Below are positions 46,285 to 63,806 of a DNA stretch of 64,000 bases, one piece after another. The stretch is from Hahella ganghwensis DSM 17046 (GTDB lineage Bacteria > Pseudomonadota > Gammaproteobacteria > Pseudomonadales > Oleiphilaceae): NCBI RefSeq assembly GCF_000376785.1, contig NZ_AQXX01000144.1, forward strand, positions 124,001-188,000. Reading direction: 5' to 3'. How positions within the stretch are numbered: the stretch's first letter is position 1; the number at the start of each line of letters is the position of its first letter. The notes under the pieces are model-generated. The model made no database searches. It was given only the letters and a program-made list of their open reading frames with translations, and was not told the DNA's origin. The translations under genes and the position numbers were made by a program.

Positions 46285-47880
46285 TTAGTCTTGTTCACCG
46301 AACATCGAGTTCAACAGCCCCAGCAAGGGGAAAGAGGCAAAGAGGCCAAGCGTCATCATCGCTTTCAAACCTTCCATTGGGCTGAAGTCACTTTGATCGC
46401 CTTTGGTGGCGTTCAGGTCCTGCTGTGTGACTTCTCTCAGGCTCAGGCCATCAAGCACCATCCAGCCTTCGCCATTGCTGTTCTCATAGAGGTTCAGGCC
46501 GTCGCCAGTAAAGGTGTCCATTAGATAACCGGCCTTCCCTTGTTCGATCGTCATGTCACCAATTTTATTCTGATCCAGCCCGTCAACCACGATGGAGTCA
46601 TTGCCATTGGTGATGGTAAGTTTGCTGGAAACGGTCATGTTCTCGTTTCCTTTCCAGGGGGTGGTGTTGATGGTAATCTTAGTGCCGCCTTCTAGATTCA
46701 GAGAGATGGTGCCCCAGAAGTCCATATCGGTTTTGCCATCGCCATCCACATCGAAATGTGGGTCGCCCCAAATCCTGGATTTTTCTCCGGTTTCTTTGTT
46801 GGTAATCCAGATTTCCGAGCTTTTTTCATTCAAGTTCAGCACGTGGGTGCCAAGATCGATCTCTGCTTTACTGCCATTTTGCTCAACTGACCAGTTATTC
46901 CCCTGGACAGGACCTGGAAAAGGAGGACAACCGCAGTCTGGTTCCTGTGCAGATTGCAGCGCATCATAGATGGCGTGAGCTTCACAATGACTGATTTTAC
47001 CGTTACATGTGGCCATGCTGACCATGGTCATCAATTCCTGGCGCTCCGAGGCATCGAGCTTCGACAAATCTGCGTTCTGGAATGCACCGGATAATGCGTC
47101 ACGGGCAAAACTCGGCTGGCAGCTATCCAGCATACCTTCTATACGATTGGCGAATATTGTATCCGGATTAGGAAAGCAGCCTCCGGTAGGGGGAGCTGGG
47201 AAGCAACCTCCTGCCATGATACCCATAAAGCAATTCACAAGCGGATTCCCCTGAGTCTTATTGCAGTCAATGTGGGGGAAAGGCCAGAAACTTTTAATAC
47301 AATCCTTGCCGCTCTCATCAAATTCGCCAATCAGGTCCAGCATAGCCCTGGCTTCTGAGCCGGTCAGTTGGGCGTCACCAGTAAATGATTTCAGCGTCGT
47401 CAAAAGAGTGCTGCGTTCCTTAACTGAGAGACTACCGCTGTCCATAGCACTTAAAGCCCATTCTACCACACTGGCATTCCAGCCATGGGTATTGTCCAAC
47501 GCCTTGTCGACAGCTTTTTCAAAGCCTGCTGGTGTTCTGGCGCCTTGTTCTATAGAAGAGCTCCAGGGATTGAAGTCCTGGCCTGATCTGAAATTAAATA
47601 GCTGGCAAATCGGATGATCTTCACCAAAAGATTTAATCATTTGCGACAGTGTGTTGGCATCCTGACGGCTAATATGGCTGTCGCCAGCCATTTCTTTGAG
47701 TGCGGTAAGAATTGCCGTACGTTCTGTCTTGGAAAGGGAACTTAAATCTACAGATTGCAGCGCACCCATAACGGTAGATTTGTTCATGCCAACGGTATCT
47801 TGGATGATACCTTTGAACTCGTTGGTAAACTGCCTGTTGGCAATTCCTTCTCCCAGATTATGAATCAGTGATCCTAACAT
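46285..47880 (-). CDS. Probable T3SS-secreted protein with metal-inducible autocleavage (DUF1521) domain
   Basis: This 531-residue protein has no signal peptide. Residues about 18-85, 120-187 and 243-311 are three related helical repeats with pattern LSxxERxxLxTxLK followed by GDxxIxxxEA. The linkers (190-320) are Cys/Pro-rich with two GGCFP motifs. About 330-495 matches DUF1521, the calcium-inducible autocleavage domain known from the Bradyrhizobium effector NopE1 and a Vibrio coralliilyticus protein; its scissile site appears as W371-G-D-P-H-F-D, between D373 and P374, followed by an acidic DVDGDGKTDMD loop that looks like a Ca site. The C-terminus is hydrophobic. AGGAGA precedes the ATG. 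A CCCTAGCTAGGG palindrome lies 141 bp upstream. Secretion is inferred from the T3SS nearby. Confidence 0.85.
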   Translation of the reverse strand: MLGSLIHNLGEGIANRQFTNEFKGIIQDTVGMNKSTVMGALQSVDLSSLSKTERTAILTALKEMAGDSHISRQDANTLSQMIKSFGEDHPICQLFNFRSGQDFNPWSSSIEQGARTPAGFEKAVDKALDNTHGWNASVVEWALSAMDSGSLSVKERSTLLTTLKSFTGDAQLTGSEARAMLDLIGEFDESGKDCIKSFWPFPHIDCNKTQGNPLVNCFMGIMAGGCFPAPPTGGCFPNPDTIFANRIEGMLDSCQPSFARDALSGAFQNADLSKLDASERQELMTMVSMATCNGKISHCEAHAIYDALQSAQEPDCGCPPFPGPVQGNNWSVEQNGSKAEIDLGTHVLNLNEKSSEIWITNKETGEKSRIWGDPHFDVDGDGKTDMDFWGTISLNLEGGTKITINTTPWKGNENMTVSSKLTITNGNDSIVVDGLDQNKIGDMTIEQGKAGYLMDTFTGDGLNLYENSNGEGWMVLDGLSLREVTQQDLNATKGDQSDFSPMEGLKAMMTLGLFASFPLLGLLNSMFGEQD

Positions 47881-48098: not shown

Positions 48099-48294
48099 GC
48101 AGACCTGATAGAAGAAAGCCGAACCTCCGGGCACACTGCAGTTACCAAATAATGCCGGGTGGATATAGCGTTACTGATGACTCCATAAGCCGTTTTATGT
48201 CCGAATTGGTGTATAGCGGATATATAAAAATGTCGTGGGCATCAGTTAAGGATCTTGTCCTCCCAAAATTCTGTTGATAGATGAGGGGATTCGA

Positions 48295-49017
48295 ATGGAC
48301 GGAGCAGGTGGCGTAGGCGGAAACGATGGTGGTCATGGTGGCGGTGTAGGCGGAAATGATGGTGGAGTAGGAAACGCAGGTGGTATGGGCGCAGCTGGAG
48401 CAGCTGGAGCAGCTGGAGCAGCTGGAGCAGCAGGCGTCGGGGCGGATACCACTACCAACGACGCGGCGAGTGAGGCTGCAGAAGCAGCGGCTGCGGCAGC
48501 GAATACTGCATCGAGCGTTGCAGCAGCGGTTCAGGATGCGATAGATACCGTAACAGATGCAATTGGCAAGACTGCGGCTGCTATTGGCGATGCCGTTGCT
48601 GAGGCAGTGACTGGTCTGACGGGTAACGAGGCGCTTGGAGAAGCCATTGGAAGTGTCGTGGAGACTGTGGCCAAAGCAGCGATGATGGGAGTTCTAACCG
48701 GAACGCCGGTGGGCTCTGTCTCTGCTCTGGGCAAAGCCGTCATGGGGCAGGTCGCCATGGATATGGCTCTAGGGTTTTCCATGGATGCGATTGATGACCT
48801 AGGGCTTTCGAAAGAAATGACCGACTTGGCCAAGATGGGAGTTCAGATTGGCTTTGGTAAGCAGATTGATGCTTATGACGCCACGACTGAAGCCATGGAA
48901 ACTCTTGGCAAAACCATGGGAGTACCGGAGCTTGGTAATTTCGCCCGTGATATGGATGCCCTGAAAGAAACGGCTATCAGTGAAGCGAAAGACAATTTTG
49001 GTCAGCCTAGCGGGTGA
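48295..49017 (+). CDS. Glycine/alanine-rich harpin-like protein, probably C-terminally frameshifted
   Basis: The start is ATG 48295 (GAGGGG six bases upstream), giving about 240 residues. The N-terminus (1-50) is low-complexity: two GVGGNDGG units, then GAA repeats encoded by four perfect 9-base units (48391-48426). An Ala-rich coiled region (60-110) and a hydrophobic helical region follow. It has no cysteine and no signal peptide, as in harpins, which are T3SS-exported, heat-stable proteins. The frame stops at 49017, but the +1 frame continues without stop to 49132 with coding-like sequence (EQAGNIAGKAVESVFDGE), so a one-base indel may have cut off the native end. The role is inferred from context only. 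Confidence 0.65.
   Translation: MDGAGGVGGNDGGHGGGVGGNDGGVGNAGGMGAAGAAGAAGAAGAAGVGADTTTNDAASEAAEAAAAAANTASSVAAAVQDAIDTVTDAIGKTAAAIGDAVAEAVTGLTGNEALGEAIGSVVETVAKAAMMGVLTGTPVGSVSALGKAVMGQVAMDMALGFSMDAIDDLGLSKEMTDLAKMGVQIGFGKQIDAYDATTEAMETLGKTMGVPELGNFARDMDALKETAISEAKDNFGQPSG
48391..48430 (+). repeat. Tandem 9-base repeat (GCAGCTGGA) in the harpin-like gene
   Basis: Four perfect tandem copies of GCAGCTGGA and a partial fifth encode GAA-type residues. Such a repeat changes length easily by slippage in multiples of three residues without changing frame. Confidence 0.85.
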
Positions 49018-49237: not shown

Positions 49238-50413
49238 TCACAACGCTGCGCATGCTGGTTGTATTCTTGCCCTTCCTGACTTTTCCCACTGAAGCAGTGT
49301 TTTATTTTCTACTACTGTGCCATCCTCCATGTCGATAAAGCGGTTAGTCTTAACTGGTGATTGAAGTAAAGCTGAAGATACGGGTTTACCAAACCAATAA
49401 ATTCCTGAATAGGCACAAATAGGTTGTGGAAGGGTTAGTTTCTTGTCCTTTCGTTTTAACCGAAAAACTTCTTTGGTTTCACCCTGGCTGAGATCCACTG
49501 TGGGAATATCGTTTCTGACGATATAAATAGTCGGACATGTCCCGTGTGCAGAACCTCCTGACATGTCATCGCTGACATGGTGGCGTAGGGCGATGAATTT
49601 GCCATCGGGTGACCAGCTAGGTGAACCCTGAGAAGCAAATTCTGCATCCGTCAGTTGCCTCATATTTCTCCCATCAAGGTTGCTAGTGTAGATATGATAC
49701 TCGCTTTCGTCAGCATTGTTTGCTAACACAAACGCTAACTGTTTTCCGTTACGACTGATATTAATGGAGGAGACTAACTTACCGGGAAATTGTTTTATTA
49801 ATGACGGAGCTTCAGACGTTCGCGGCTTGGCTGAAAATATGCTGTCATTTTCTGTAATAAACAGACTGCTATCACTATGCCATGTATATCCTTTAATTTG
49901 ATTGATGCCATCAGATGCATATGTCTGGATGATATTGCCATTACGGTTAAATATGGGAACGCGATCTGGCTTACTGCCGTAGTATTGCTGTAATACGGCG
50001 ATTAACTCTCCGTCCGGTGAAATTTCCGCTTTGCCGGAAAGCGTTATCTTATCAACGACCTTTGAGAGAATATCTCCTTGTCTGTCTATGATAACGAGTC
50101 TGCTTTTATCAATGCCGTCATCCATGGTGACAGCGAATTCTTGTCCGTCAAAGGAGGGGGTTATAGTCCAAAAATCGCCATCGGCATCACTCCAAAGAGT
50201 TCGCGCAATTCCGGATTCTAGGTCTAGTTCATAATATTTATCGGCCGCACTGTAGTACAAGTAACCCTCTAAACCGTTGTTGTACCCAATGGTGTCTTTT
50301 TCAGAGGTATAGGATGATCCTGATTCACCGCAGGCAGTAAGTTGAATTGTAATCAAGAAGGAAATAGTGAGAAATTGGTAGCGGAGTAGTTTGGGAAACA
50401 TATTTAGTATCAT
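49238..50413 (-). CDS. Beta-propeller (PD40/TolB-like) lipoprotein
   Basis: This 391-residue protein has a lipoprotein signal peptide ending in the lipobox LTAC (Cys about residue 28) and a beta-propeller with PD40-type repeats such as ISPDGELIAVLQQYYG and WSPDGKFIALRHHVS. It belongs to the same family as the three lipoproteins at 51579, 52851 and 53933: all share a GLEGYLYY/GLQGTLFF-type strand after the Cys, PD40 repeats and a late cysteine motif (AHGTCPTIYIV). A second ATG lies four codons in. These proteins should sit in the outer or inner membrane facing the periplasm. The function is not known; their mixing with harpin-like genes hints at a joint role. Confidence 0.82.
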   Translation of the reverse strand: MILNMFPKLLRYQFLTISFLITIQLTACGESGSSYTSEKDTIGYNNGLEGYLYYSAADKYYELDLESGIARTLWSDADGDFWTITPSFDGQEFAVTMDDGIDKSRLVIIDRQGDILSKVVDKITLSGKAEISPDGELIAVLQQYYGSKPDRVPIFNRNGNIIQTYASDGINQIKGYTWHSDSSLFITENDSIFSAKPRTSEAPSLIKQFPGKLVSSINISRNGKQLAFVLANNADESEYHIYTSNLDGRNMRQLTDAEFASQGSPSWSPDGKFIALRHHVSDDMSGGSAHGTCPTIYIVRNDIPTVDLSQGETKEVFRLKRKDKKLTLPQPICAYSGIYWFGKPVSSALLQSPVKTNRFIDMEDGTVVENKTLLQWEKSGRARIQPACAAL

Positions 50414-50568
50414 TGCCTACATTAGATTAATTCGTACGCGGCATAGAAATTAGTGGTTAGTCTGAATAGACTTTTTTATACAGTGTCTATGCGTTAATTA
50501 ATATTGGAATTTTCCCTATATTTGGCGTGTCTGGAAGGAGCGATAAAAGAGGTCTTTCTGTGCTTTTT

Positions 50569-50584
50569 CTAGGGTAATCCCTAG
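50569..50584. promoter_or_regulatory. Inverted repeat CTAGGG-N4-CCCTAG
   Basis: Perfect six-base arms in an orientation opposite to the CCCTAG-type core, 156 bases upstream of the lipoprotein gene on the minus strand. It may be a second binding geometry for the same regulator. Confidence 0.4.
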
Positions 50585-50668
50585 GTGGATCGTCAATGCA
50601 ATTAGTTAATAATATCTCGAGTAAGAGCGTCGCAGTTGCAGAAAGATGCGAGGCAACACTCGGGGCAA

Positions 50669-50680
50669 CCCTAGCTGGGG
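50669..50680. promoter_or_regulatory. Palindrome CCCTAGCTGGGG upstream of the second harpin-like gene
   Basis: One base off the perfect 48021 copy. It is followed four bases later by a second palindrome, ACCAGCTGGT. Confidence 0.5.
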
Positions 50681-50801
50681 AACGCACCAGCTGGTTTCTG
50701 AAATGACCATCTCTAAAATCGAAATTGTGAGTCCAACAGCTTTCGACACTATCACTACCGTTGGATGCTGGATTTAACAAAATTGATTAAGGAGAAATAC
50801 A

Positions 50802-51464
50802 ATGGGTTTTGGAATCGGTGGTTTTGATCTTTCAAGTGTAGCTAGCATGGCAATGAATGTTGCCAGCCTGTCTAATCCAGCGATGTTTGCTGCGCGTTGT
50901 TGTGGCGGTGGCCTTTTGCAGGCTGGTGAAGCGGTCATTCAGAATCTGGGCGAGATGATGGGGCTTCCGCAGCACTCAATCGACTTCGCGCAAGGTCTGT
51001 TTAATCAGGCTTTTGGTAATACTGCAGGAGCTGCCTCAAATTTCCAGGAGGCCTACCAAGGTCTATTGGAGTCTCTGTCTCCAACAGATGCGGCACGTGT
51101 CCAGGGGCAAATTGGAGATGCCGCGCAAGGCGCCGCAGAGGAAATCCAGAATGGCGGTGATTTCAGTGACTTGGTAGGTCGCCAGATCCAGGAAGAAGGA
51201 ACCTCTGGTTGTGAAGGTGGTAAAGGGAAAGGAAACTTCTTGCAAGCACTTGCGAAAGCGCTGGGTACTGTGCTTGGAGAGAAAGCTGAAAAAATGATGG
51301 ACTCTTTAGAGAAGCTCGAAGGTGCTGAGGAAGGTAAAGAGTTCAGTCAGGCGCAGGCTGAATTCTCTGCTGATTCACAAACGTTCAGCATGATGTCTAA
51401 CCTCACCAATACAGTGATTAAGACAATAGGTGAAGCCTTGAATACTGCTGCCCGGAAACAATAG
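50802..51464 (+). CDS. Harpin-like / T3SS-secreted candidate protein (220 residues)
   Basis: A strong AAGGAGAA site precedes the ATG. The 220-residue protein has no signal peptide. Its N-terminus is Gly/Ala/Met-rich (GFGIGGFDLSSVASMAMNVAS), followed by RCCGGGLLQAGEAVIQNLGEMMG, helical segments, a GCEGGKGKG hinge and a long C-terminal amphipathic helix ending NTVIKTIGEALNTAARKQ, which recalls the C-terminal helices of T3SS filament or translocator proteins. It has three cysteines, unlike classical harpins. A CTAG palindrome lies 121 bp upstream and a very strong terminator follows, so it is a single-gene transcript. I cannot assign it to a known family. Confidence 0.68.
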   Translation: MGFGIGGFDLSSVASMAMNVASLSNPAMFAARCCGGGLLQAGEAVIQNLGEMMGLPQHSIDFAQGLFNQAFGNTAGAASNFQEAYQGLLESLSPTDAARVQGQIGDAAQGAAEEIQNGGDFSDLVGRQIQEEGTSGCEGGKGKGNFLQALAKALGTVLGEKAEKMMDSLEKLEGAEEGKEFSQAQAEFSADSQTFSMMSNLTNTVIKTIGEALNTAARKQ

Positions 51465-51480
51465 TCTCTATTGTGCGAGG

Positions 51481-51518
51481 TGCCAAAAGCCGGGATGTTG
51501 TCATCTCGGCTTTTGGCA
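51481..51518 (+). terminator. Strong 17-bp hairpin terminator
   Basis: TGCCAAAAGCCGGGATG and CATCTCGGCTTTTGGCA pair over 17 bases with one G-U, around a TTGT loop; TTT follows. It ends the harpin-like gene transcript 17 bases after its stop. Confidence 0.75.
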
Positions 51519-51578
51519 TTTCACATTGCGGCAATGTGGAGAATGGGTGGCGACGGATTACTAAAAGGGAGTATTGAA

Positions 51579-52628
51579 ATGGTGGGGGATTTTTTAGTTG
51601 GCAAAACCCTTTTCTACATCAAAGTCATATTGTTGAGTTGTTTGGCGGTAGTTATATCGGCATGTGGTGGAGGCGGTGGCGGCAGCACTAGTAGTAATGA
51701 AGGCGACGACACCAGTGGAGGAGATAAAACAGGTCTTGAGGGAACACTTATCTTTGAGAAAGTTGTCAATAAGATTCATCAATATGACTTGGCAGCTAAT
51801 AAAAATAAGTCTGTTTTAGATTTGGATGGTGCAATTGGTGTAGATAAGTCGGAAAACTTGCTGCTAGTGAATGATGATTTCCAAACTGTCGGCTCAGCAA
51901 TCGATTTTCGCGTGATAGTGTAAACCGTTGATCAGAGTGGAAACGTTATTTCCACCTTTACCAAACCAGGTAGTATCACTCTGGAGAGAGATCCGAAGGT
52001 GTCTCCCGATGGCAGTGTGATCGCTTTGTACTATGAGCCTGAAGAGTTAGGTATCCCGGCTCTTGTCCTGGTAAAAAGAAATGGAGATACACTCCGCTAT
52101 TATGAAGACCCAGGCTCAGATATAAGAAGCTTTGATTGGTCTCCAAACGGTGTTTTGTACATAGGTGAAGATGACGCAATTTATCAAGTGGACTTTCATG
52201 TGGGTCCTGAAAAGCAGTTACTGAGGAAGTTCACTGGTAGTCATGTCTGGGATACATTGTCGGTGAGTCCTGATGGTCTACAGGTCGTATTTAGTATGAG
52301 TCAAGGGGAATTTTCCAGAGGTAATGGAGATTATGATTTATTTATTATGGACGCTGATGGAAGCAATCTCCGATTGATGATTGATCATGCAGAGGATGAC
52401 ATCCATGGAGCTGCCTGGTCTCCAGACGGGAATTATCTGGCGATTACCCGAGGAATAGATGTACATGATGCAATCCAGCCCTGTCGTGGGGCTTTATATG
52501 TCATAAAAGCGACTGCGACTAATCTTACTTTGGATGAAGGTAGCGCGGAAGTTACCTCGCTTGTCGATAAATATGGGGAAACATTTTGTTCCAACCCGGC
52601 TTCTGTGCCTATTTGGACAGGTTGGTGA
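51579..52628 (+). pseudogene. Beta-propeller lipoprotein gene broken by one in-frame stop
   Basis: AGGGAG precedes an ATG at 51579; the product has a lipoprotein signal ending in VISAC and GGGGGG. The frame hits TAA at 51921-51923, then continues in the same frame to 52628 with clear PD40 repeats (SPDGSVIALYYE, WSPDGNYLAITRG) and the family end CRGALYVIKATATNLTL. Aligned with the intact paralogue at 53933, the stop falls at the Tyr of DVYTLDRNG (here VIV-stop-TVDQSG), so a TAC/TAT to TAA change explains it. The downstream part has no ribosome site. It is a recent inactivation, a sequencing error or, less likely, a read-through site. Confidence 0.75.
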
Positions 52629-52655
52629 ATCTATATCCGATCAATAGGTACATTA

Positions 52656-52665
52656 AGCTAGGGGG
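52656..52665. promoter_or_regulatory. Half-site AGCTAGGGGG upstream of a propeller lipoprotein
   Basis: It matches the right half of the CCCTAGCTAGGG element, 186 bases before the start at 52851. The left half is not conserved. Confidence 0.25.
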
Positions 52666-52850
52666 CATGTTAGAGGATCTCATAGGCGGAAATAATTCTC
52701 GCAGACAGCTGCAAAGAATGCACTGGATATGGGGTTAACTTTTTACTGCTGGATATCAGTGAGGACGGCTTCGTCGCTAAAACTGATGCGATCAGAAACT
52801 TGCTTGAGTCAATGCAGTAACAGGATAAATGATCGTAAGGCAGGCTCTCA

Positions 52851-53861
52851 ATGTTCGTCAGTCAATGTAGCAGATGGTTGGTTTTCGTCATTCTTTTTGG
52901 CATGACGGCAGCCTGCAGTGGCTCCTCTGGCAGCCGGTCCGAATATGGTTGTGATCGTTCAGCTTTTCATTGTGGGCATGTCGGCAAGCTGTACTATGAA
53001 ACCTCTGATGGAATTAGGGGGACCCGCGATGGGTTCAGTCAGATGATATTGGAGTCTGGGCGAGTCACTAATATTGAGGAGGCAGGGATTTCTGCCTCGG
53101 TTTCTGCAGATGCGAAGTATTTTGTCGGTGTATTTGATAGCTCCTCTGATCGATCCCATGAGGTTATCAGAGGCTTTGACCTAGGTGGAAATAAACTGTG
53201 GCAATATCCCATCGAGAAGTTGGTATGGGGTCGTCCCAAGCTATCTCCCGATCATAAACTACTGGCCTTTACCTACAAGCCCATTTACCACACTAAAGTG
53301 GGAGCTGCGCTGATTGTGACTGATAAACAGGGGAATCTTGTCAGCCAGTACCCTGAAACAGAGAATGGAAGAATAGTCAGTTGGGAGTGGTTGCCGGATG
53401 GCAGGCTTTTGTACGCCAAGGGCGATTCAATATTTTTGGTTACTGACATCGTTAAAGGACAGGCGGAAGTGCTGGCTGAGTTTCGCGGAGATACACCAAA
53501 CTTTCTGGCTGTCAGCCCTGATGGCTCGCGACTCGCATTTTCCCTCGGAGACTTTAAAAGTACTCATTATGCAAAGACTCATTTGTATGTCATGGATCTG
53601 GCATCGAAGTCTTACCAACAGGTCACAACCTCCTCCAAGAATGAAGATGGATTTACCTGGTCTCCTGACGGAAAGTTTATTGCTTTGAGGCACAGGATTT
53701 TTTATCAATCATCTCGTTGCCCGGACCTGATTATTGTGCCTGCCGATGCACGAGAACTGAACCTTAATAATGAAGGTTTAAAGGAGAAGCTGACGGTCAA
53801 AGTGAAAATTGATGGTGATCTACTTGGAGCCTGTCCACGCACAGTACCTGAATGGCGTTGA
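52851..53861 (+). CDS. Beta-propeller (PD40) lipoprotein, divergent paralogue
   Basis: This 336-residue protein has a lipoprotein signal with lipobox TAAC (Cys near residue 22) followed by SGSSGSRSEYGCDRSAFHCG. PD40-like repeats include LSPDHKLLAFTYKP, VSPDGSRLAFSLGD and WSPDGKFIALRHRI; the tail carries SSRCPDLIIVPADARELNLN and ends CPRTVPEWR, like the late Cys motif of the paralogues. A periplasm-facing, membrane-anchored protein is expected. Its 3' end overlaps a possible early start of the next lipoprotein gene. Function unknown. Confidence 0.8.
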   Translation: MFVSQCSRWLVFVILFGMTAACSGSSGSRSEYGCDRSAFHCGHVGKLYYETSDGIRGTRDGFSQMILESGRVTNIEEAGISASVSADAKYFVGVFDSSSDRSHEVIRGFDLGGNKLWQYPIEKLVWGRPKLSPDHKLLAFTYKPIYHTKVGAALIVTDKQGNLVSQYPETENGRIVSWEWLPDGRLLYAKGDSIFLVTDIVKGQAEVLAEFRGDTPNFLAVSPDGSRLAFSLGDFKSTHYAKTHLYVMDLASKSYQQVTTSSKNEDGFTWSPDGKFIALRHRIFYQSSRCPDLIIVPADARELNLNNEGLKEKLTVKVKIDGDLLGACPRTVPEWR

Positions 53862-53932
53862 TATGGTTTATTCCCAATCCCGCCGGAATCTTCCGTTTAC
53901 GACTTAGCACAGACAGGTTTGCAGGCCCATTT

Positions 53933-54934
53933 ATGTATAGCCCCCAGCGATTATTGAAAATAGTTTTGATAGCTTGCCTGTTAACAATTTTAACTTCTTG
54001 TGGAAGCGACGATATGGGCCTGTCATCTAACCGTGAAAAAGGTCTCCAAGGGACTTTGTTCTTCGAGAAGGTAGTAGATGATTTTCGTCAATTTAGCTTT
54101 TCCTCAAATACTCAAGGGCCTGCTATTGAGTTGGATGGTCTCGTCGGAGTAGACGAGGAGGAGAATATACTGTTCGTAAAGCAGAGAACTGAGATTACTG
54201 GAGCTGCAATTAACTTCTTTATCGATGTTTATACGCTCGATCGGAACGGCAAGAAACTCTCTGTATTCTCTAAGCCAGGGAGCTACACATTGGAAAGAAA
54301 TCCACGGGTTTCTCCCGATGGCAGTGTTATCGCCCTATATTATGAAATAGAAGGTGGAAATGCCGCTCTCGCGTTGTTAAAACGAGACGGGACCCTACTT
54401 CGTTCGTACGATTCTTCAGATGGCCCGATTCGAAGCTTTGACCTGACCTCAGATGGAAAGCTGATCATTGGTCAGGGTGACTCAATATATCAGGTGGATT
54501 TTAAGGTTGGCATCACAAAGCAATTGCTTCGTCGTTTCCCTGGAAGCGATATATGGGACACATTGTCTGTCAGCCCTGATGGCAGTCAAATTGTCTTTAG
54601 CATGAGCCAAAAGGGTCTAACTCGAGGTCGTGGAGACTTTGATCTATATTCAATGAATATAGATGGGACTGGTCTGCGAACCCTTGTGGACAACGAATCC
54701 GATGATATCCATGGCGCAGCATGGTCTCCAGATGGAAAATATCTGGCGATTACTCGAGGTATCGATGTGCATGATGCAATTCAACCTTGTCGTGGGGCTT
54801 TATATATCATAAATGCAACGGCTTCCAATCTGACTTTGGAAGAGAGCAGTACTGATGTCACTTCTCTTGTCGACGAATATGGAAAATTATTCTGCTCCAA
54901 TCCCGCTGAAACTCCTATCTGGACAAACTGGTAA
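53933..54934 (+). CDS. Beta-propeller (PD40) lipoprotein, intact paralogue
   Basis: I place the start at ATG 53933, which gives a proper lipoprotein signal (MYSPQRLLKIVLIACLLTIL, then TSC); the frame is open 27 codons further. The 333-residue product has GLQGTLFFEKVVDDFRQF after the lipid Cys, PD40 repeats (SPDGSVIALYYE, VSPDGSQIVFSMSQ, WSPDGKYLAITRG) and the end CRGALYIINATASNLTLEE. It is the closest relative of the broken gene at 51579, so a gene duplication is likely, with the 52851 gene between the two copies. TolB-like propellers usually bind proteins; a partner among the neighbouring secreted proteins is conjecture. Confidence 0.82.
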   Translation: MYSPQRLLKIVLIACLLTILTSCGSDDMGLSSNREKGLQGTLFFEKVVDDFRQFSFSSNTQGPAIELDGLVGVDEEENILFVKQRTEITGAAINFFIDVYTLDRNGKKLSVFSKPGSYTLERNPRVSPDGSVIALYYEIEGGNAALALLKRDGTLLRSYDSSDGPIRSFDLTSDGKLIIGQGDSIYQVDFKVGITKQLLRRFPGSDIWDTLSVSPDGSQIVFSMSQKGLTRGRGDFDLYSMNIDGTGLRTLVDNESDDIHGAAWSPDGKYLAITRGIDVHDAIQPCRGALYIINATASNLTLEESSTDVTSLVDEYGKLFCSNPAETPIWTNW

Positions 54935-55095: not shown

Positions 55096-55524
55096 ATGAA
55101 TATTGGTGGACTAATTGGTGGCGCTGGCGGCGGCGGATTGGGCGGTATACTCGGAGGCGGAGGCCTTGGGGGAATTCTGGGTGGTGGAGAGGGGGCTGGC
55201 GGACTACTCTCAACTATTGGTGGAATTGTCGGTGGCATGTTTGGCGGTCCCATCGGGTCTATGCTCGGGCAACTGGCGGGAGATATTCTGGGAAAAGTGC
55301 TGGATGAAGGTATGCAGGAAAATGGTAACTTCACCCAGCAGATGCAAAATGAGGTGCATTCTCAGTTTGGAACCAGCCCGCAGAATGACACTTCCCTGGA
55401 CGAACTTCTGGATGCAGCGTCCAACATTCTCAGCGCTACCGATTTCAGTCGCTTATCGCGGGATATTGAGACCTTGCAAACTGAGGTTAATGTCTCTCTG
55501 AATGCTTTCGCTGCTGCCCGTTAG
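55096..55524 (+). CDS. Glycine-rich harpin-like protein (142 residues)
   Basis: AAGAGGAAAG precedes the ATG. Residues 1-35 are almost only Gly, Leu and Ile, with the unit GLGGILGGG repeated; 36-75 is hydrophobic with glycines (GGIVGGMFGGPIGSMLGQL), and 76-142 is hydrophilic and helical (DELLDAASNILSATDFSRLSRDI). It has no cysteine, no signal peptide and is acidic overall in its second half, all typical of harpins. The upstream CTAG palindrome ties it to the other candidate secreted genes. I know no close named relative. Confidence 0.68.
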   Translation: MNIGGLIGGAGGGGLGGILGGGGLGGILGGGEGAGGLLSTIGGIVGGMFGGPIGSMLGQLAGDILGKVLDEGMQENGNFTQQMQNEVHSQFGTSPQNDTSLDELLDAASNILSATDFSRLSRDIETLQTEVNVSLNAFAAAR

Positions 55525-55813: not shown

Positions 55814-56251
55814 ATGAATACCGAACTTTTTTACGTATTAAAGCCGGCGATATTAGTCGTTACAATTATTTCGCTTGTTGGCTGCGTGAATGGCGAGTCT
55901 GTTACTAAAAGAGAGTATTCAAAAACCATTGATAAGTCGATTACCGCCGATTTTATGTATGGTGAGTACCCACAACTATCCTCCTGCTTTACTGAAGACA
56001 AATCCTCATTAAAGAAATCTTTGGATCAGGCTCTCGACAATTGCCGTCAGAATCAGCTGGCAAAGATTTCCGACAATGAGATGCTTTCGGTAGCATCTCA
56101 ACAGAACTTCACCAAGCGTGTTACGAAATGTGGATTGTTTGATTATCTGGCAAAACATCAGGATACCTACAAAGGTAAACAGGATGGCAGCTGTTCTCTG
56201 GTATCGCGTATGTATCGGAATATCACTCAGAAAAATGTCGATGTCTTTTAA
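55814..56251 (+). CDS. Small lipoprotein preceding the SctD-like gene
   Basis: The ATG at 55814 has AGGGAAG nine bases upstream; a start ten codons earlier is less likely. The 145-residue product has a lipoprotein signal ending LVGC (Cys near 24), then a helical, cysteine-containing domain (LSSCFTEDKSS, LDNCRQNQL, VTKCGLFDYL, DGSCSLV). Four mature cysteines suggest disulfides in the periplasm. Its end overlaps the start of the SctD-like gene, so they are co-translated; a role as a T3SS basal-body or pilotin-type lipoprotein is possible but it has no SctJ motifs. Confidence 0.7.
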   Translation: MNTELFYVLKPAILVVTIISLVGCVNGESVTKREYSKTIDKSITADFMYGEYPQLSSCFTEDKSSLKKSLDQALDNCRQNQLAKISDNEMLSVASQQNFTKRVTKCGLFDYLAKHQDTYKGKQDGSCSLVSRMYRNITQKNVDVF

Positions 56252-57671
56252 TCGCCGCAAACTAAATCGATCAAGGCAAATAGTCGTTGCAGATGGTGTG
56301 GACACTCCCTTGCTTTCCAGGCTGGACCTGACTGATAGCCAGGTATGCCTGATCGGGAAAGATGATCTATGTGATATCAGTGAAACCAAAGCTGGACTAT
56401 CTGACAAGCACTGTATCGTTAACTATTCACAGGGGCATGTCTGGGTCAAATCAATGGCTGAGGCGTACCTGGAGGGAAATCTCCTTCCAGTTGACAAAAG
56501 TTGTCTGTGGCGAATTGGGCAAAGACTGACTGTGGGCAATATGCAGCTTATTCTGCAGGTTCCAGTATCACACTGGGAAAAAATCACCAATACAGCATCC
56601 CGTTATTTTGATGTGCTGAATTTTTACCGACAGGCTGAAAGAAGGTGGTTGGTATTAGTTGCGATCATCTTGTTGGTGGTTACCACACTATATAGCTGGC
56701 TTTCTGCAACGAAGGAATCCCTGGACGCATTGGTGTTGTCTGAACAGGTCAGTACTTTGGATGATCAATTAATTCCTGGTGATCAGAGCGGCGCACATAT
56801 GCTGAAAGTCGCAAAAGATGTTGCTGAGGTTTTCCGTCTGTCGGGCATGCCTGTTTCTACATCCGTAGCGGCACCTGGAGAGATTTTGGTTCGAGGTGAT
56901 TTTGCTGATCAGGCAGGTCTGAGAAAAGTCATTTATTCATCTTCAATGAGAGAAGTGTCGGGACTGAGTAAAATACTGGTGGAGAGTTATCAAGCCCTTG
57001 GAAAACAACCTGACAATTCACCATACAGCTATATAGATTATATTGTCGAAGGCCTGGATAACTATATTGTCGCCAATGATGGTTCTCGGTTTTATCTCGG
57101 ATCAGTGTTACCGGGAGGAGAAAGGTTAGTGGGCTTGGAGCAGGAAAGCATTGTTGTCGAGCATCTGGGAGTGTCGGCGGAAATTCCAAAGCAACAATTC
57201 ACGGTCGTTAAAAGCAGTCAGCCGAATCAGTTGGCCGGGGCAACAAACAATACTGCTGAACCTGGAGACTATGCGGCCTATATCCAGGAAGCAGTTCGGC
57301 TGTATGAGGTTCCTGAATCAATTATCAGGGCCGTCATTCAAGTTGAGTCTGGTTATGATCCTCAGGCGATCTCACATGCCGGAGCTATAGGGCTTATGCA
57401 GTTAATGCCGGATACAGCCAACTCCCTTGGTGTGCAAAACCCGTTTGACCCCCAGCAGAATATTCTTGGCGGCTCTAAACACTTAAAAGATCTCCTGGGC
57501 CGCTATGATAATAACCTTACCCTGGCACTTGCTGCCTACAATGCTGGAGAAGGGGCTGTAAATCGATATAGAGGGGTTCCACCCTATTCAGAGACTCAAG
57601 ACTATGTTGCGAAAGTACAGCGATTGGTCGGATTCTATGATCAGGAAAAAGACCCTAGCTTATCCAACTGA
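56235..57671 (+). CDS. sctD: SctD-like T3SS inner-membrane ring protein fused to a lytic transglycosylase
   Basis: This 478-residue protein (ATG 56235; 56241 also possible) combines parts normally made from two genes. Residues about 20-108 form an FHA-like cytoplasmic domain (LIGKDDLCDISE, LSDKHCIVNYSQGHVWV) as in SctD. One membrane helix is at 137-155 (WLVLVAIILLVVTTLYSW). Periplasmic ring-building (BON/SctD-like) modules follow at about 175-310 (VAKDVAEVFRLSGMPVS, IVEGLDNYIVANDGSRFYLG). After a linker, 345-478 is a family 1 lytic transglycosylase with catalytic E371 in VIQVESGYDP, then HAGAIGLMQLMPDTA and ALAAYNAGEGAVNRY. SctD proteins build the MS ring; such transglycosylases (IpgF, IagB, EtgA) open peptidoglycan for the needle. 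The start overlaps the lipoprotein gene. Confidence 0.85.
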   Translation: MSMSFNRRKLNRSRQIVVADGVDTPLLSRLDLTDSQVCLIGKDDLCDISETKAGLSDKHCIVNYSQGHVWVKSMAEAYLEGNLLPVDKSCLWRIGQRLTVGNMQLILQVPVSHWEKITNTASRYFDVLNFYRQAERRWLVLVAIILLVVTTLYSWLSATKESLDALVLSEQVSTLDDQLIPGDQSGAHMLKVAKDVAEVFRLSGMPVSTSVAAPGEILVRGDFADQAGLRKVIYSSSMREVSGLSKILVESYQALGKQPDNSPYSYIDYIVEGLDNYIVANDGSRFYLGSVLPGGERLVGLEQESIVVEHLGVSAEIPKQQFTVVKSSQPNQLAGATNNTAEPGDYAAYIQEAVRLYEVPESIIRAVIQVESGYDPQAISHAGAIGLMQLMPDTANSLGVQNPFDPQQNILGGSKHLKDLLGRYDNNLTLALAAYNAGEGAVNRYRGVPPYSETQDYVAKVQRLVGFYDQEKDPSLSN

Positions 57672-58226
57672 TGAGGCTGGACTGTGGCTGATTCCCAGAC
57701 TTTTTTGAAGTAATGCCAATGCGGCTTGGTCGGTCGAATGGTGCTGGCCTTGGTAATCTTTATAAGTCTGAATACTCATATGGAGTTGTTCCTGTTTTAA
57801 ACGTTGTCCATATACAGTGACAGATTCAATCAGTTCCAGAGATAGGTGTTCCTCTGGTGCAGCAAGATAAAGCTTTTCCAATTGATCGGTTGTCATTTCA
57901 ACCGCTGCTTGATTGAACAGCAAACTTCGGTTTTGAGCACCCATTTGCCCAATCCCTCTCATCAAATTACGAAGCAAATCTGTTGCGGTAGATGGACCTC
58001 GCTTTTTGCGTTGTCGTCGTAATGCTTTATTGAGCGGTCCTTGTGTCAGTCGATCAAGAATTCGCAGTAAGTCTGATTGGGCAATATTAAAAAAAGCAGG
58101 GTTTAATAATCCGTCGCGAGTGAGCAGACCCTGGATATCTAACTGTTGAGCCGCTGCGGCTATGGTTATTTGTTGCAAAGAGGCAGCGACTGATCCAGGT
58201 GTAAGTGTGCCGAGGGAGTTACTCAT
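57660..58226 (-). CDS. T3SS-associated protein downstream of sctU
   Basis: This 188-residue, Leu/Gln-rich, mostly helical protein has no signal peptide or membrane helix. It has a basic patch (KALRRQRKKRGPSTATDLL) and several long helices (QSDLLRILDRLTQ, DQLEKLYLAAPEEHLS). Its ATG overlaps the sctU stop by four bases (ATGA), and its 3' end overlaps the sctD-like gene by 12 bases on the other strand. The tight coupling to sctU suggests a chaperone, a regulator or a cytoplasmic T3SS part, but I recognise no family. Confidence 0.7.
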   Translation of the reverse strand: MSNSLGTLTPGSVAASLQQITIAAAAQQLDIQGLLTRDGLLNPAFFNIAQSDLLRILDRLTQGPLNKALRRQRKKRGPSTATDLLRNLMRGIGQMGAQNRSLLFNQAAVEMTTDQLEKLYLAAPEEHLSLELIESVTVYGQRLKQEQLHMSIQTYKDYQGQHHSTDQAALALLQKSLGISHSPASSVG

Positions 58227-59326
58227 ATCTGTTCATCACTTTGTACGGATAGAAATCCATCTCGTTTGGCCTTCTCGGATGTTTCCTTTGCCCACTTGAG
58301 AAGTTCGGCGACAGGGGCAAAGAAATCTGGGGTGATATAGGTATCCAATGCAATCTCCTGGTTAAGTCCTCGCGCCAGATCAATGTTCTGCATAATGGGA
58401 ATGCCCTCTTCTTCGGCTGTTTCCCGAATTCGCTGAGCCATATAACCCTCTCCTTTAGCCACGACCATAGGAAGGTCAGTCTCATCCTTTTCATAATAAA
58501 GGGCGACCGCAATATGAGTCGGGTTGACTACAACAACGTTAGACTTCCTCACAGCAGCGAGCATGTTTTGCTGAGACCATTCCTGATGTAGTTGCTTTCT
58601 TTGACCTTTGACCTGTGGATCACCTTCGCTATCTTTATGCTCCTGCCTAATATCCCGTCGGCTCATCATCAGGTCTTTAATAAACGAGTGTCGTTGGTAT
58701 CCCATATCCAGGATGCTGATAAAAAAGAAAATGAAAACTACGCTGGCGACGATAAGAACGGTGACGTCCCAATGGGCAAGGAGAGCATTCATGGGGATGT
58801 CTGACAGCGGAAGTAGCAGATATTCCGGAATGTGTAGATAGCCCAGCAGTCCGACAATAATCAATAATGCGATTGTTTTAACAAGAGCTTTGACGACTTC
58901 TATCAGGTTTTTCTGCGAAAACATTCGCTTGATTCCTTCGCCAGGGTTCAGGTGATTCATATTCGGCTTTACCTGCTTGAATGCCAGCACTGGGCCGACC
59001 TGCAGAAATTCGACAAATGTGCCTATCAGGGATGCAGCAATCAGACAGGGAAGTAGTATCAGAAGTAATACTTTACAGGATTCCGCCATTAGCTCTATCA
59101 GCATTTGATTGGTGAGATTAGGTATCGCATGAAACATCATCAAATATAAGTGAGAAATCCGATCATAGGCTATTGGAGCGGTAAAAGTGATCATCATGAG
59201 CCAGAGTAGTAGGGAAAGTGTTTTACTCAGATCCTGGCTTTTGTGTACCTGCCCCTCTTTTCGAGCATCCTTGAGCCTTTTGGCGGTAGGCTTCTCGGTT
59301 TGGTCGGCTCCTTTTTCCTGCGCCAT
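58223..59326 (-). CDS. sctU: T3SS export gate switch protein SctU
   Basis: This 367-residue inner-membrane protein of the FlhB/YscU family has four membrane helices (about 30-215) and a cytoplasmic domain with the autocleavage motif N268-P-T-H in VVVVNPTHIAVALYY, where self-cleavage switches substrate class. The N-terminus EKPTAKRLKDARKEGQV is typical. Membrane loops include KPNMNHLNPGEGIKRMFS. It has been separated from sctT by two opposite-strand genes, whereas sctRSTU are usually contiguous. The small downstream gene overlaps its stop. Confidence 0.96.
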   Translation of the reverse strand: MAQEKGADQTEKPTAKRLKDARKEGQVHKSQDLSKTLSLLLWLMMITFTAPIAYDRISHLYLMMFHAIPNLTNQMLIELMAESCKVLLLILLPCLIAASLIGTFVEFLQVGPVLAFKQVKPNMNHLNPGEGIKRMFSQKNLIEVVKALVKTIALLIIVGLLGYLHIPEYLLLPLSDIPMNALLAHWDVTVLIVASVVFIFFFISILDMGYQRHSFIKDLMMSRRDIRQEHKDSEGDPQVKGQRKQLHQEWSQQNMLAAVRKSNVVVVNPTHIAVALYYEKDETDLPMVVAKGEGYMAQRIRETAEEEGIPIMQNIDLARGLNQEIALDTYITPDFFAPVAELLKWAKETSEKAKRDGFLSVQSDEQI

Positions 59327-60789: not shown

Positions 60790-61596
60790 TCATGAGAACA
60801 GCTTTGCCATTGCATCGAGTAAAGCCTGATTAGAGGTTAATTTTCTCAGCACGACTTCAATGATGGTTCCCAGGCTGATGACAAGTATGAAAGTTGATAG
60901 CCAGAATTTTATCGGCATGGACAATGCCAATACGTTGATTTGTTGTGCGAATCGATTGATCAGGCCCAGTGAAAGATCGACCAGCGCCAGCAACAGCATC
61001 GCGGGCAATGCAATCATGAGTGACTTCGACATAATGAATTCAAGTTCTTGAATAAATACCATTGCCCCTTTCAGCTTCAAATCGAGCAATATGTTGTGGA
61101 TAGGCCACAACTTGTAGGATCCCAATAGTATATCCAGGAATATCAGGAAGCCTCCGCTGACCATAAAAAGCCATGTGGCAAACCTGGATAGCCATAAGCC
61201 CATAGGAGTTGCCTGATGTCCTTGAATGGGGTCCATCGCGTTCGCCATATTGGATCCCGTTTGAGTATCTATAATGCCACCGGCGACACTGAGGGCCCAA
61301 AATATGGAGCCGAAAAGGAATCCCATACAGGCCCCCAAGAAAATTTCCTTGAGTATAATGAACGGCCACATGACGCCAGGAATCAAACTGGGTTCTATTG
61401 TGGCAAAGGCAATCGGGTAAACCATGATCGAAAGACTGACGAACAGACTATTGCGGACCAGGGCAGGTACCGACTCCTGAGTGAGCAGAGGCAAAACCAG
61501 AAATGCCGCGCCAATTCTTGGTAAGCATAAAGCCGCGCCCAGGAGAGTCGATTCAATCAGGGCAATGGCTTCATTATAAAAAGTGACTGAATTCAT
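60790..61596 (-). CDS. sctT: T3SS export apparatus protein SctT
   Basis: This 268-residue inner-membrane protein of the FliR/SpaR family is part of the export gate with SctR and SctS. It has about seven hydrophobic segments and the family stretches PRIGAAFLVLPLLTQESVPALVRN, ILKEIFLGACMGFLFGSIFWAL and the GGIIDTQTGSNMANAMDP turn. It starts five bases after the sctS stop. Its stop is only 18 bases from the convergent gene end at 60771. Confidence 0.95.
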   Translation of the reverse strand: MNSVTFYNEAIALIESTLLGAALCLPRIGAAFLVLPLLTQESVPALVRNSLFVSLSIMVYPIAFATIEPSLIPGVMWPFIILKEIFLGACMGFLFGSIFWALSVAGGIIDTQTGSNMANAMDPIQGHQATPMGLWLSRFATWLFMVSGGFLIFLDILLGSYKLWPIHNILLDLKLKGAMVFIQELEFIMSKSLMIALPAMLLLALVDLSLGLINRFAQQINVLALSMPIKFWLSTFILVISLGTIIEVVLRKLTSNQALLDAMAKLFS

Positions 61597-61601
61597 GTGG
61601 T

Positions 61602-61874
61602 CTAGTGGGTTCTGACCAAAGCTGGAAATTCAGAGAAAATGGTATCTGCGAACTGGTAAAGAGTTTCCCCGAGGAAGCTGGCAGTTAAAAACAGCGTGAT
61701 GACGATTACCGTTAGTTTCACGGTGAAAGCCAGCGTTTGTTCCTGTAGCTGAGTGACAGATTGAAGAAAAGCAACCAACAGCCCTGATACGGAAGCAGCG
61801 ATGATTGGCGGTGCTGATAGCAAAAGTACCAGCCACAACGCATCCTGAGTCAGCCGGATAACATCGGAATCCAT
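61602..61874 (-). CDS. sctS: T3SS export apparatus protein SctS
   Basis: This 90-residue protein of the FliQ/SpaQ family has two long membrane helices (about 15-40 and 50-75) joined by SVTQLQEQTLAFTVKL, the conserved loop. Four copies assemble with SctR and SctT in the export gate. Length is typical (86-90). It is 94 bases after sctR and 5 bases before sctT. Confidence 0.95.
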   Translation of the reverse strand: MDSDVIRLTQDALWLVLLLSAPPIIAASVSGLLVAFLQSVTQLQEQTLAFTVKLTVIVITLFLTASFLGETLYQFADTIFSEFPALVRTH

Positions 61875-61968
61875 AATCTTAACCTTGCGGGATAAAGATA
61901 CAAAAGGTGGTTGGCAGGATCTCTATGATCGGTGCCTCTGGTGTTGATCCGTATATCATTTCAAGTCC

Positions 61969-62634
61969 TTAAAGGTAAGTGATGACAAGGCCATGAACCA
62001 GTTGTGTCCAGCCACTGACAAAGACAAACAACAATAGTTTAAAAGGCAGGGACACCATGGTGGGAGACAGCATCATCATGCCCAGGCCAAGCAGTATGTT
62101 GGATACCACCAGGTCAATCACCAGGAAGGGAAGAAAGATCAGGAACCCAATCTGGAAAGCTGCGGTTAACTCGCTGACCGTGAAAGCTGGAACCACCACC
62201 AGCAAGTCCGTATCTTTGACAGACTGAGCAGCTTCTTCAGGAAGTAATCTTTTTGCGCTGCGGAAGAAGAAAGCCCGTTCAGATTCGCTGGAGTGCTTTA
62301 TCAGAAAATCCTTGAGGGGATCTTTGCCCATATCCGCCAGGCTCACCATTTTCTCCAGCGACATTTTCTCATCCGGAGAGCTGTCCATTTCAGCGGTTAC
62401 GATACTGTGAGTGCTCAGAATAACCGGGTACATGACATAAATGGAGAGAATCAGAGCCAGGCCATTTAAAACAACATTAGGAGGTACCTGTTGTAGACCA
62501 AGGGCGTTTCTGAGCAGTGACAGTACAACAACTATCTTGGTGAATGATGTGATCATTACGGCAACAAAGGGGGCCATCGCCACGCCTATGACCATGATAA
62601 TTATGGCCCCCGGGCTTAAACTGCCAACGTCCAT
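61969..62634 (-). CDS. sctR: T3SS export apparatus protein SctR
   Basis: This 221-residue protein of the FliP/SpaP family has four membrane segments with conserved blocks TSFTKIVVVLSLLRNALGLQQVPPN in two parts around FTKIVVVLSLLRNALG, DLLVVVPAFTVSELTAAF and GFLIFLPFLVIDLVVSN. It starts two bases after the sctQ stop. A 94-base gap precedes sctS. It forms the pore of the export gate. Confidence 0.96.
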   Translation of the reverse strand: MDVGSLSPGAIIIMVIGVAMAPFVAVMITSFTKIVVVLSLLRNALGLQQVPPNVVLNGLALILSIYVMYPVILSTHSIVTAEMDSSPDEKMSLEKMVSLADMGKDPLKDFLIKHSSESERAFFFRSAKRLLPEEAAQSVKDTDLLVVVPAFTVSELTAAFQIGFLIFLPFLVIDLVVSNILLGLGMMMLSPTMVSLPFKLLLFVFVSGWTQLVHGLVITYL

Positions 62635-62636
62635 GA

Positions 62637-62933
62637 CTACCCCAGTTCAGTAATGCGAATTCCAAGTTGGTCGCCTACGATAACCAATTCTCCCCGTCCA
62701 ATAGGGTGTCCATTGGCCAGCAATATGGCTTCCCGGCTATGGTCTTCAGAAGGGATTTTCAGGGTATGGCCGGGTTCCAGTTGATTCAGTTCGTCAACGG
62801 ATAGCGTTAATTTTCCTACCTGAACATTGATATCTATTGGCAGATCCTGGACCTTGTAGTGAGATTGCTCGTTAGTGGTTTCTGACGCACTATCCTGTGC
62901 AGTTGATGTTTGTGATGGGGATTCCGGGTTCAT
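62637..62933 (-). CDS. Probable internal translation product SctQ-C
   Basis: Inside sctQ an in-frame ATG (62931-62933) is preceded by AAGGAAG with an eight-base spacer, a better ribosome site than that of full-length sctQ. It would give a 98-residue protein that begins MNPESPSQTS, just before the C-terminal SpoA domain. Yersinia YscQ-C and Salmonella SpaO-S are made this way from internal starts and have a similar size and domain. The full-length/short pair is needed for sorting-platform assembly in those systems. Confidence 0.6.
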   Translation of the reverse strand: MNPESPSQTSTAQDSASETTNEQSHYKVQDLPIDINVQVGKLTLSVDELNQLEPGHTLKIPSEDHSREAILLANGHPIGRGELVIVGDQLGIRITELG

Positions 62934-63779
62934 CGAGATGACTTCCTTAATTGTATCTTCATGGTTCTCATGTGCTGATAGATGATGGCCTTTCATCGTG
63001 GAGGTTTTCGTCAACAGACTGCAGCTGTCCCCGGCTTTCTTTAGGTTCCATAATGGTGTGTTTGAATGGGAATGAACCAATAGCAAGGTATTGAGTACAT
63101 TGCTTTCCGGGCCAATCAGCATGACATCCCCAGGGCCATAGGTTTGGAGCTCCGATAGCCTCAAGGAAAAGGCATGAGTCTGTATATGAACGGGAACGGG
63201 TACCTTTTCAAGAAAGCGCTGTGATGGGAGGGAGGTTCTCTCCCACACAGGTCTTTTGGTCAGCATGGAGAGTGTCGGCAGGCATAAATTTATGATTCCA
63301 TTGGTCAATTGGTTTCGGTTCTCAACCATAAACCTCAGTGGAATACTGTTCTCGGGAGGAAAGCTTTCATGAGAACTAATTTCCTCCACTTGCCATACTA
63401 TGCCAGTTAACTCCTCAAGGTGATCAAGAAACTCTTTGTGTGCCAACGTAAATGCCAATGCCTGGTGACAAGGCTGAAACTGTGTCCAGTGCCGGTCGTT
63501 CACGGAGACGTTCCATTGGTCGCTATCAAGCGCAAGCCACAGGTGTTTCTCCGCGGCTCTCATTTTGATCCAGTGTCGAGGCTGTTTTCTTTCGTGTTGA
63601 AAGCGCCAGTGGGACAATTGGGAAGACACGCAAACCCTTGCGAATATACCCCTGCTGTGAAGAATATTGGTTTGCAGGATCTGAGTTTCAGGGATAGAAG
63701 GCAATTCGGGTCGTAGAGACCTGACTTCTACCGGCCCGGTATCCAGCTCTGTCTGAAATCCATTATGATCGACAGTCAC
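62637..63779 (-). CDS. sctQ: T3SS cytoplasmic sorting-platform protein SctQ
   Basis: SctQ is the C-ring-like pod protein of the cytoplasmic sorting platform. I use a GTG at 63779 because AAGG lies nine bases upstream; a TTG at 63788 would add three residues but touches that site. The 380-residue product has a middle FliM/SpoA-like part (about 195-270, VPVPVHIQTHAFSLRLSEL) and a C-terminal SpoA domain (about 305-380, LPIDINVQVGKLTLSVDEL and GRGELVIVGDQLGIRITEL). A Ser/Glu-rich linker joins them. An internal start at 62933 probably yields a separate SctQ-C. sctR starts two bases after its stop. Confidence 0.92.
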   Translation of the reverse strand: MTVDHNGFQTELDTGPVEVRSLRPELPSIPETQILQTNILHSRGIFARVCVSSQLSHWRFQHERKQPRHWIKMRAAEKHLWLALDSDQWNVSVNDRHWTQFQPCHQALAFTLAHKEFLDHLEELTGIVWQVEEISSHESFPPENSIPLRFMVENRNQLTNGIINLCLPTLSMLTKRPVWERTSLPSQRFLEKVPVPVHIQTHAFSLRLSELQTYGPGDVMLIGPESNVLNTLLLVHSHSNTPLWNLKKAGDSCSLLTKTSTMKGHHLSAHENHEDTIKEVISMNPESPSQTSTAQDSASETTNEQSHYKVQDLPIDINVQVGKLTLSVDELNQLEPGHTLKIPSEDHSREAILLANGHPIGRGELVIVGDQLGIRITELG

Positions 63780-63806
63780 GATGATCAACCTTGTCTAAAG
63801 ATTTAT

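Follow-up and report, generated by a model that had tools for sequence, protein, structure and literature searches.

An SctD paralogue fused to a predicted lytic transglycosylase adjoins a type III secretion cluster in Hahella

Within the 64,000-nucleotide stretch of the Hahella ganghwensis DSM 17046 genome analysed here (the window), a single open frame (56235..57671, + strand) encodes a 478-residue protein in which an SctD-type ring protein is followed by a lytic transglycosylase domain. Translation could also start at an in-frame ATG at 56241 (+). The protein begins with an FHA-like cytoplasmic domain of the SctD type (residues 1-118; 56235..56588, +), placed by a sub-cut-off match to Yop-YscD_cpl, alignment with SctDs and invariant residues, and continues with a membrane helix located by hydropathy scan (residues 139-157; 56649..56705, +). 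Two periplasmic modules follow, one of the ring-building type (residues 187-256; 56793..57002, +), assigned from a TIGR02500 match at residues 208-317 and invariant residues, and one corresponding to the C-terminal SctD module (Y4YQ_C-like; residues 264-327; 57024..57215, +), assigned from a sub-cut-off Y4YQ_C match and invariant residues. The C-terminus is an SLT lytic transglycosylase domain (PF01464; residues 345-470; 57267..57644, +). A first-pass annotation made from the letters of the sequence had described this arrangement of FHA-like domain, one helix, SctD modules and transglycosylase in one frame, and domain profiles, alignment and hydropathy bear it out.

The fusion is preceded by a gene for a 145-residue protein that looks lipoprotein-like by eye (55814..56251, +); its last 17 bases overlap the start of the fusion, and it matches no family over a cut-off. 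Downstream, a 188-residue ORF with no family assigned (57660-58226) separates the fusion from sctU (58223..59326, -; TIGR01404, 374.2 bits, over the cut-off), the start of a type III secretion system (T3SS) cluster. Family matches identify sctT, sctS, sctR and sctQ at 60790..63788 (-), and beyond the window the cluster continues with sctV, sctC, an unfused sctD, sctJ, sctL and sctN, of which sctL and sctN score below the T3SS-specific cut-offs. A 103-residue gene after the unfused sctD was taken for sctF from its position only, as it has no family match. Between sctQ and sctV lie genes for a FixJ-like response regulator and a FixL-like sensor kinase (L043:11807-13670, starting at the window's end, about 63807), which are perhaps the cluster's own regulators.

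All library matches of the SctD type fall below their curated cut-offs, but they occur in the expected order: Yop-YscD_cpl at residues 35-108 (19.7 bits against a Pfam cut-off of 33.2), TIGR02500 (E 1.9e-6, 27.1 bits against an NCBIfam cut-off of 86) and Y4YQ_C at residues 273-310 (16.3 bits against a Pfam cut-off of 27). The domain search proposed in the first-pass annotation was thus clear for the transglycosylase, which exceeds its cut-off, and gave only ordered, sub-cut-off matches for the SctD and FHA-type profiles. The TIGR02500 cut-off is missed by the unfused SctDs of this lineage as well (45.4 and 50.5 bits). Stronger signals came from direct sequence comparison. In a phmmer search of 351 ORFs from fetched loci, a set that left out the unfused SctD of H. 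ganghwensis itself, residues 1-325 matched unfused SctDs of four other genomes (E 2.6e-27, 2.4e-26, 4.3e-23 and 4e-16); with the unfused SctD of the same genome, the match covers residues 134-309 (E 1.7e-15). The first 325 residues are equivalent to an entire SctD, aligning nearly end to end with the unfused proteins across the FHA-like domain, helix, ring module and C-terminal module, at an identity of only 20-25% to canonical SctDs. Searched against the sequences of solved structures, an SctD profile returned 22 sequences at E-values of 1 or less, the majority of them named as FHA-type chains; the best was 3gqs (E 2.8e-5), the FHA domain of Chlamydia SctD. The same kind of search with the SctD part of two fusions gave one insignificant match; other matches among solved structures were SLT enzymes.

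The transglycosylase half matches PF01464 over residues 349-447 (E 6.2e-31; 106.8 bits against a Pfam cut-off of 21.3), and there is a match to it in PHROGs. Family 1 lytic transglycosylases are marked by a catalytic Glu and by the motifs ES, GLMQ and AYNAG. Here E371, S372, GLMQ at 386-389 (including Q389) and AYNAG at 434-438 are identical in three fusions, namely those of the window, of Hahella sp. CCB-MM4 and of a genome from a different family, G257. The expected catalytic residue, Glu371, had been described as intact, and its GAG codon (57345..57347, +) and its presence in all three proteins agree with this. We infer that the domain is a wall-cutting enzyme, a prediction drawn from these motifs. 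Derivation from IagB or IpgF was considered and is unsupported: the IagB model, whose cut-off is 208, gives only 20.9 bits, so the domain is not close to IagB. The best-scoring model for an enzyme of this kind is a flagellar one, at 101.9 bits against a cut-off of 234.

The unfused sctD of the cluster encodes 406 residues and lies directly after sctC at C144:194378-195598, outside the 64-kb window and 12.7 kb from the fusion. Its product gives 45.4 bits with the SctD model and is at or over the cut-off with both Y4YQ_C (39.9 bits) and Yop-YscD_cpl (33.2 bits). The SctD model has six matches in the H. ganghwensis genome. One exceeds the cut-off, a 448-residue protein (145 bits) on C57; since C57 also carries an sctJ, this SctD is part of a different T3SS. 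Two partial matches (26.4 and 19.7 bits) fall within the single 406-residue frame (C144:194687-195544), the fusion itself gives 18.8 bits, and two further weak matches lie elsewhere. Because a separate sctD is present in the same cluster, the fusion is, by homology, a second SctD, a paralogue rather than the sole SctD of its system. The earlier proposal, in which this T3SS uses the fusion as its ring protein, therefore fails by the very test set with it, a separate sctD in the cluster, and replacement of SctD by the fusion was rejected as the simplest reading. The fixed stoichiometry that had been proposed between wall opening and ring assembly is likewise not implied, as the fusion is an additional paralogue.

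The same arrangement is found in Hahella sp. CCB-MM4 (G004), where a 471-residue fusion with 56% identity to that of the window shows the same orientation towards the sctU operon. The gene upstream of it shares 62% identity over 151 residues with the 145-residue protein of the window. A gene resembling an outer-membrane beta-barrel protein (L046:12263-13036, -; 22.6 bits with PF13505, below the cut-off) stands between this lipoprotein-like gene and the fusion in CCB-MM4, and none stands there in the window. In both species the fusion adjoins sctU and an unfused sctD follows sctC. The latter bears on the idea that the fusion is the main inner-ring protein at every position, with the unfused SctD minor or spare. 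Although the full SctD layout of the fusion would suit that role, the unfused gene has been kept in its usual place in both species, and it also follows sctC in the fusion-free clusters that were read (G008, G015 and G056); we consider such a division of labour improbable.

Two of the seven genomes of the genus, those of the window and of CCB-MM4, carry the fusion, and five do not. Among 163 genomes of the family, four have near full-length matches to an SctD profile (G000, G004, G008 and G015), and the frame is fused in two of these. Across 390 genomes of the order the SctD profile led to the third fusion, in G257; in this search and in that of 369 genomes of the class, a fused SLT domain was checked only for matches with loci. 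A profile built from the three fusions matched 123 of 392 genomes of the order at 1e-38, with both halves covered in two (G000 and G257), and 41 of 398 genomes of the phylum at 1e-45, with both halves covered in one (G000). The other listed matches start at profile position 273 or later (at least 273) in frames of at most 373 residues, and so represent stand-alone enzymes. None of 1076 matching plasmid records has a single region that covers 80% of the fusion. Because these samples overlap and are thin, and CCB-MM4 is absent from the sets of 392 and 398, the rarity of the fusion is indicated rather than measured. The same two-domain architecture, for which a search had been suggested, does occur elsewhere, at 56% identity in CCB-MM4 and 30% in G257. 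Chance, or an artefact of sequencing or assembly, was rejected as the source of the chimera, which is complete and has the same T3SS neighbours in two species and recurs in a third genome. The first-pass annotation knew of no described example, and we recognised no description of an SctD-transglycosylase fusion in the open-access literature, a body of work that largely excludes subscription papers and so leaves the absence unproved.

How much of SctD each fusion has retained can be judged from residues that are invariant in eight unfused, canonical SctDs of the lineage. The ring module keeps 12 of 15 such residues in the window, 13 in CCB-MM4 and 2 in G257; the C-terminal module keeps 7, 7 and 3 of 8, and the FHA part 4, 3 and 4 of 7. 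Under a looser rule (conserved in 7 of 8) two SctDs of another lineage serve as a second yardstick. For the ring module the counts are 12, 13 and 3 of 18, with 6 and 6 for the other-lineage proteins; for the C-terminal module 8, 9 and 7 of 12, with 8 and 8; and for the FHA part 5, 4 and 6 of 9, with 7 and 7. By these counts, then, only the ring module marks the Hahella fusions as fit for the ring of this lineage, and the same residues show drift in the FHA part of the fusions. The hydrophobic peak, too, varies: the mean hydropathy of 2.4 at residues 139-157 is the single clear hydrophobic stretch of the window protein, and the peak reaches only 1.3 in the CCB-MM4 copy and 2.0 in that of G257. 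The usual FHA motif is SxxH; alignments read by eye place its Ser in the window copy, Leu in CCB-MM4 and Gln in G257, and a phosphate-reading FHA domain is not favoured.

Comparison of the two Hahella coding sequences shows both halves of the fusion to be under constraint. The nonsynonymous difference is 0.29 in the FHA part, 0.28 in the periplasmic part and 0.18 in the SLT domain, against 0.59 and 0.64 in the linkers; between the same species it is 0.34 for the unfused SctD, 0.12 for SctC and 0.11 for SctJ. Synonymous sites are saturated at this distance (0.69-0.82), so no ratio is given. It could be argued from the patchy distribution (2 of 7 genomes in the genus, 2 of 163 in the family) that the gene is a duplicate fused by chance, weakly expressed or of no important role. 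However, the frame and the catalytic motifs have been kept at 56% identity despite saturated synonymous sites, with each folded part constrained, and we give this explanation little chance of being right.

A tree of SctD sequences separates two SctDs of the other lineage, with a support of 100/100, from the remaining eleven, which are the three fusions and eight unfused SctDs. The fusions group together without firm support, at 53/84 (not starred), and the branch to G257 is very long. A special tie of the fusions to Hahella's own SctD is neither demonstrated nor rejected (p-AU 0.346). Their common layout favours a single origin of the three fusions, to be read with the 53/84 support and the long branches. 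As to the source of the SLT part, the enzyme trees suggest no firm placement: among 45 domains the three fusions group together with a support of 46, and among 70 domains the group that holds them comprises 20 tips with a support of 36.

The G257 copy is found in a different setting. It encodes 511 residues, with an SLT domain at E 3.6e-47, and in a profile comparison its first 372 residues matched 262 columns of the SctD alignment with a probability of 98.2%. When 15 genomes of its family were searched at 1e-12, both halves were matched in G257 alone. The gene adjoins vgrG and a type VI secretion system (T6SS) cluster with TagH, TssJ, TssK and TssM, which is not a T3SS locus. We found no injectisome in this draft genome (99% complete), in which the SctJ and SctV matches are only of flagellar level. 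The one SctJ-type match, in a 560-residue frame, scores 78.1 bits, against 170-230 bits in 13 injectisome-bearing genomes. The one SctV-type match (608.5 bits) is taken for FlhA because it lies among genes that, read by eye, form a flagellar cluster; the SctV cut-off is not decisive alone, as the SctV of G189 itself also falls below it. An injectisome in G257 is unlikely on this gene content, and the copy beside the T6SS appears to have taken on a new role. Its FHA part weakly matches a TagH model at 30.2 bits; two unfused SctDs do so at 26.0 and 27.3 bits, so this was rejected as a sign of T6SS kinship.

A third copy in a genome without an injectisome means that the protein need not work in one. 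It may instead be a wall-remodelling enzyme anchored in the inner membrane outside the T3SS ring, with the SctD part only an anchor with a protein-binding head, and serve the wall at large or a different envelope machine, for instance a T6SS. The G257 locus and gene content, the drifted FHA part, and the dependence that a T6SS can have on dedicated wall enzymes (TagX; PMC5061870) would all fit. Both Hahella fusions, however, abut a T3SS cluster and retain the ring-module residues, which only G257 has lost, and we regard a role outside the ring as unlikely.

We propose, with about an even chance of being right, that the Hahella fusion joins the inner ring as a minor subunit and in this way keeps a wall-cutting enzyme tethered to the injectisome. 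Hypothetically, sctD was duplicated and the duplicate gained a C-terminal family 1 lytic transglycosylase. The inner-membrane ring would still be built by the cluster's unfused SctD, and the fusion would dock in or beside it as a minor subunit through its retained ring-building and C-terminal periplasmic modules. The enzyme would thereby be kept atop the inner ring and close to the secretin base, a position from which it could cut glycan strands and let the basal body cross the wall. It would stand in for IpgF, IagB and EtgA, which other injectisomes have as separate enzymes. Ring entry, enzymatic activity, place and timing are in each case what we would predict from sequence.

A minor ring subunit is plausible because SctD subunits exchange in Yersinia, where a variant SctD enters injectisomes already assembled (PMC12603124), and the C-terminal region of SctD contacts the secretin (PMC3459982). 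EtgA is held at assembly sites by EscI, and its strong overproduction harms E. coli (PMC9250224); a tether would answer the same need for confinement. Counting against a minor subunit are the five of seven genus genomes that lack the fusion and an FHA part that scores below the other-lineage SctDs, and with only 20-25% identity to canonical SctDs a mixed ring cannot be taken for granted. In its favour are the whole-SctD correspondence, the pairing of both genes in two species, the kept ring-module residues and the constraint on the folded parts. A further point in favour is the lack of any SLT gene near the T3SS cluster in seven genomes whose related SctD is unfused: we found none on the T3SS contig, or none within 200 kb where a contig is shared (G015, G189 and G233); the T3SS contig of G222 is only 9.5 kb, and the SctD of G233 is of the other lineage. 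These genomes have 4 (G008), 6 (G015), 7 (G056), 9 (G189), 5 (G222), 4 (G233) and 5 (G417) SLT matches. The other five SLT genes of H. ganghwensis are all on contigs other than C144.

The fusion shares its layout of FHA-like domain, one membrane helix, and ring-building and C-terminal modules with known SctDs (YscD, PrgH, MxiG, EscD), but adds a C-terminal enzyme and is a second copy beside an unfused SctD. Like IpgF, IagB and EtgA it ties an SLT-type enzyme to a T3SS, adjoining sctU in two species, though not in G257; those enzymes are separate small proteins, whereas the fusion has its enzyme built into a homologue of a ring protein. FlgJ has an enzyme fold that differs from SLT, and is a rod scaffold and main copy rather than an inner-ring protein and extra paralogue. 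The dual-domain form of FlgJ nevertheless likewise joins a structural part of flagellar rod assembly to a wall-cutting domain, and other bacteria use two separate proteins in its place (PMC8517470). TagX and related T6SS wall enzymes resemble the G257 copy in linking a dedicated wall enzyme to an envelope machine; TagX differs in being an L,D-endopeptidase homologue, and the accessible part of PMC5061870 mentions no SctD part.

How envelope-spanning machines open the wall only at the site of building is a standing question, and every enzyme described to date for an injectisome is a separate protein, held through contacts with partners. If a ring-protein homologue bears the enzyme, both location and activity would become accessible to tests on a single gene. 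That a duplicate persists alongside an unfused SctD suggests that uniformity is not a requirement for inner rings. Should the copy beside the T6SS be functional, it would mean that a module of this sort can pass from one machine to another. Both ideas can be combined into a mixed inner ring with a few enzyme-bearing SctDs in some injectisomes and a G257 copy, without the ring-building residues, that now serves a T6SS. We hold this combination tentatively and think it on balance doubtful; if true, one portable, membrane-anchored wall opener would have served two unrelated secretion machines.

Other genes of the window lie on the far side of the fusion from sctU. At 49238-54934 are four related genes whose products appear by eye to be lipoprotein-like TolB-like repeat proteins (49238-50413, -; 51471-52628, +, in two pieces; 52851-53861, +; 53852-54934, +), the second interrupted by a stop or a break of the frame. 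Small Gly/Ala-rich or amphipathic proteins, with no family match over a cut-off, are encoded between the T3SS cluster and a DUF1521 gene (48274-49017, 50802-51464 and 55096-55524 (+)); relatives of the protein at 55096-55524 are present, by eye, at the CCB-MM4 locus. The DUF1521 gene itself (46285-47880, -) encodes 531 residues (PF07481, 155.6 bits). As the domain is known from rhizobial T3SS effectors of the NopE kind, its product is a candidate secreted protein of this T3SS.
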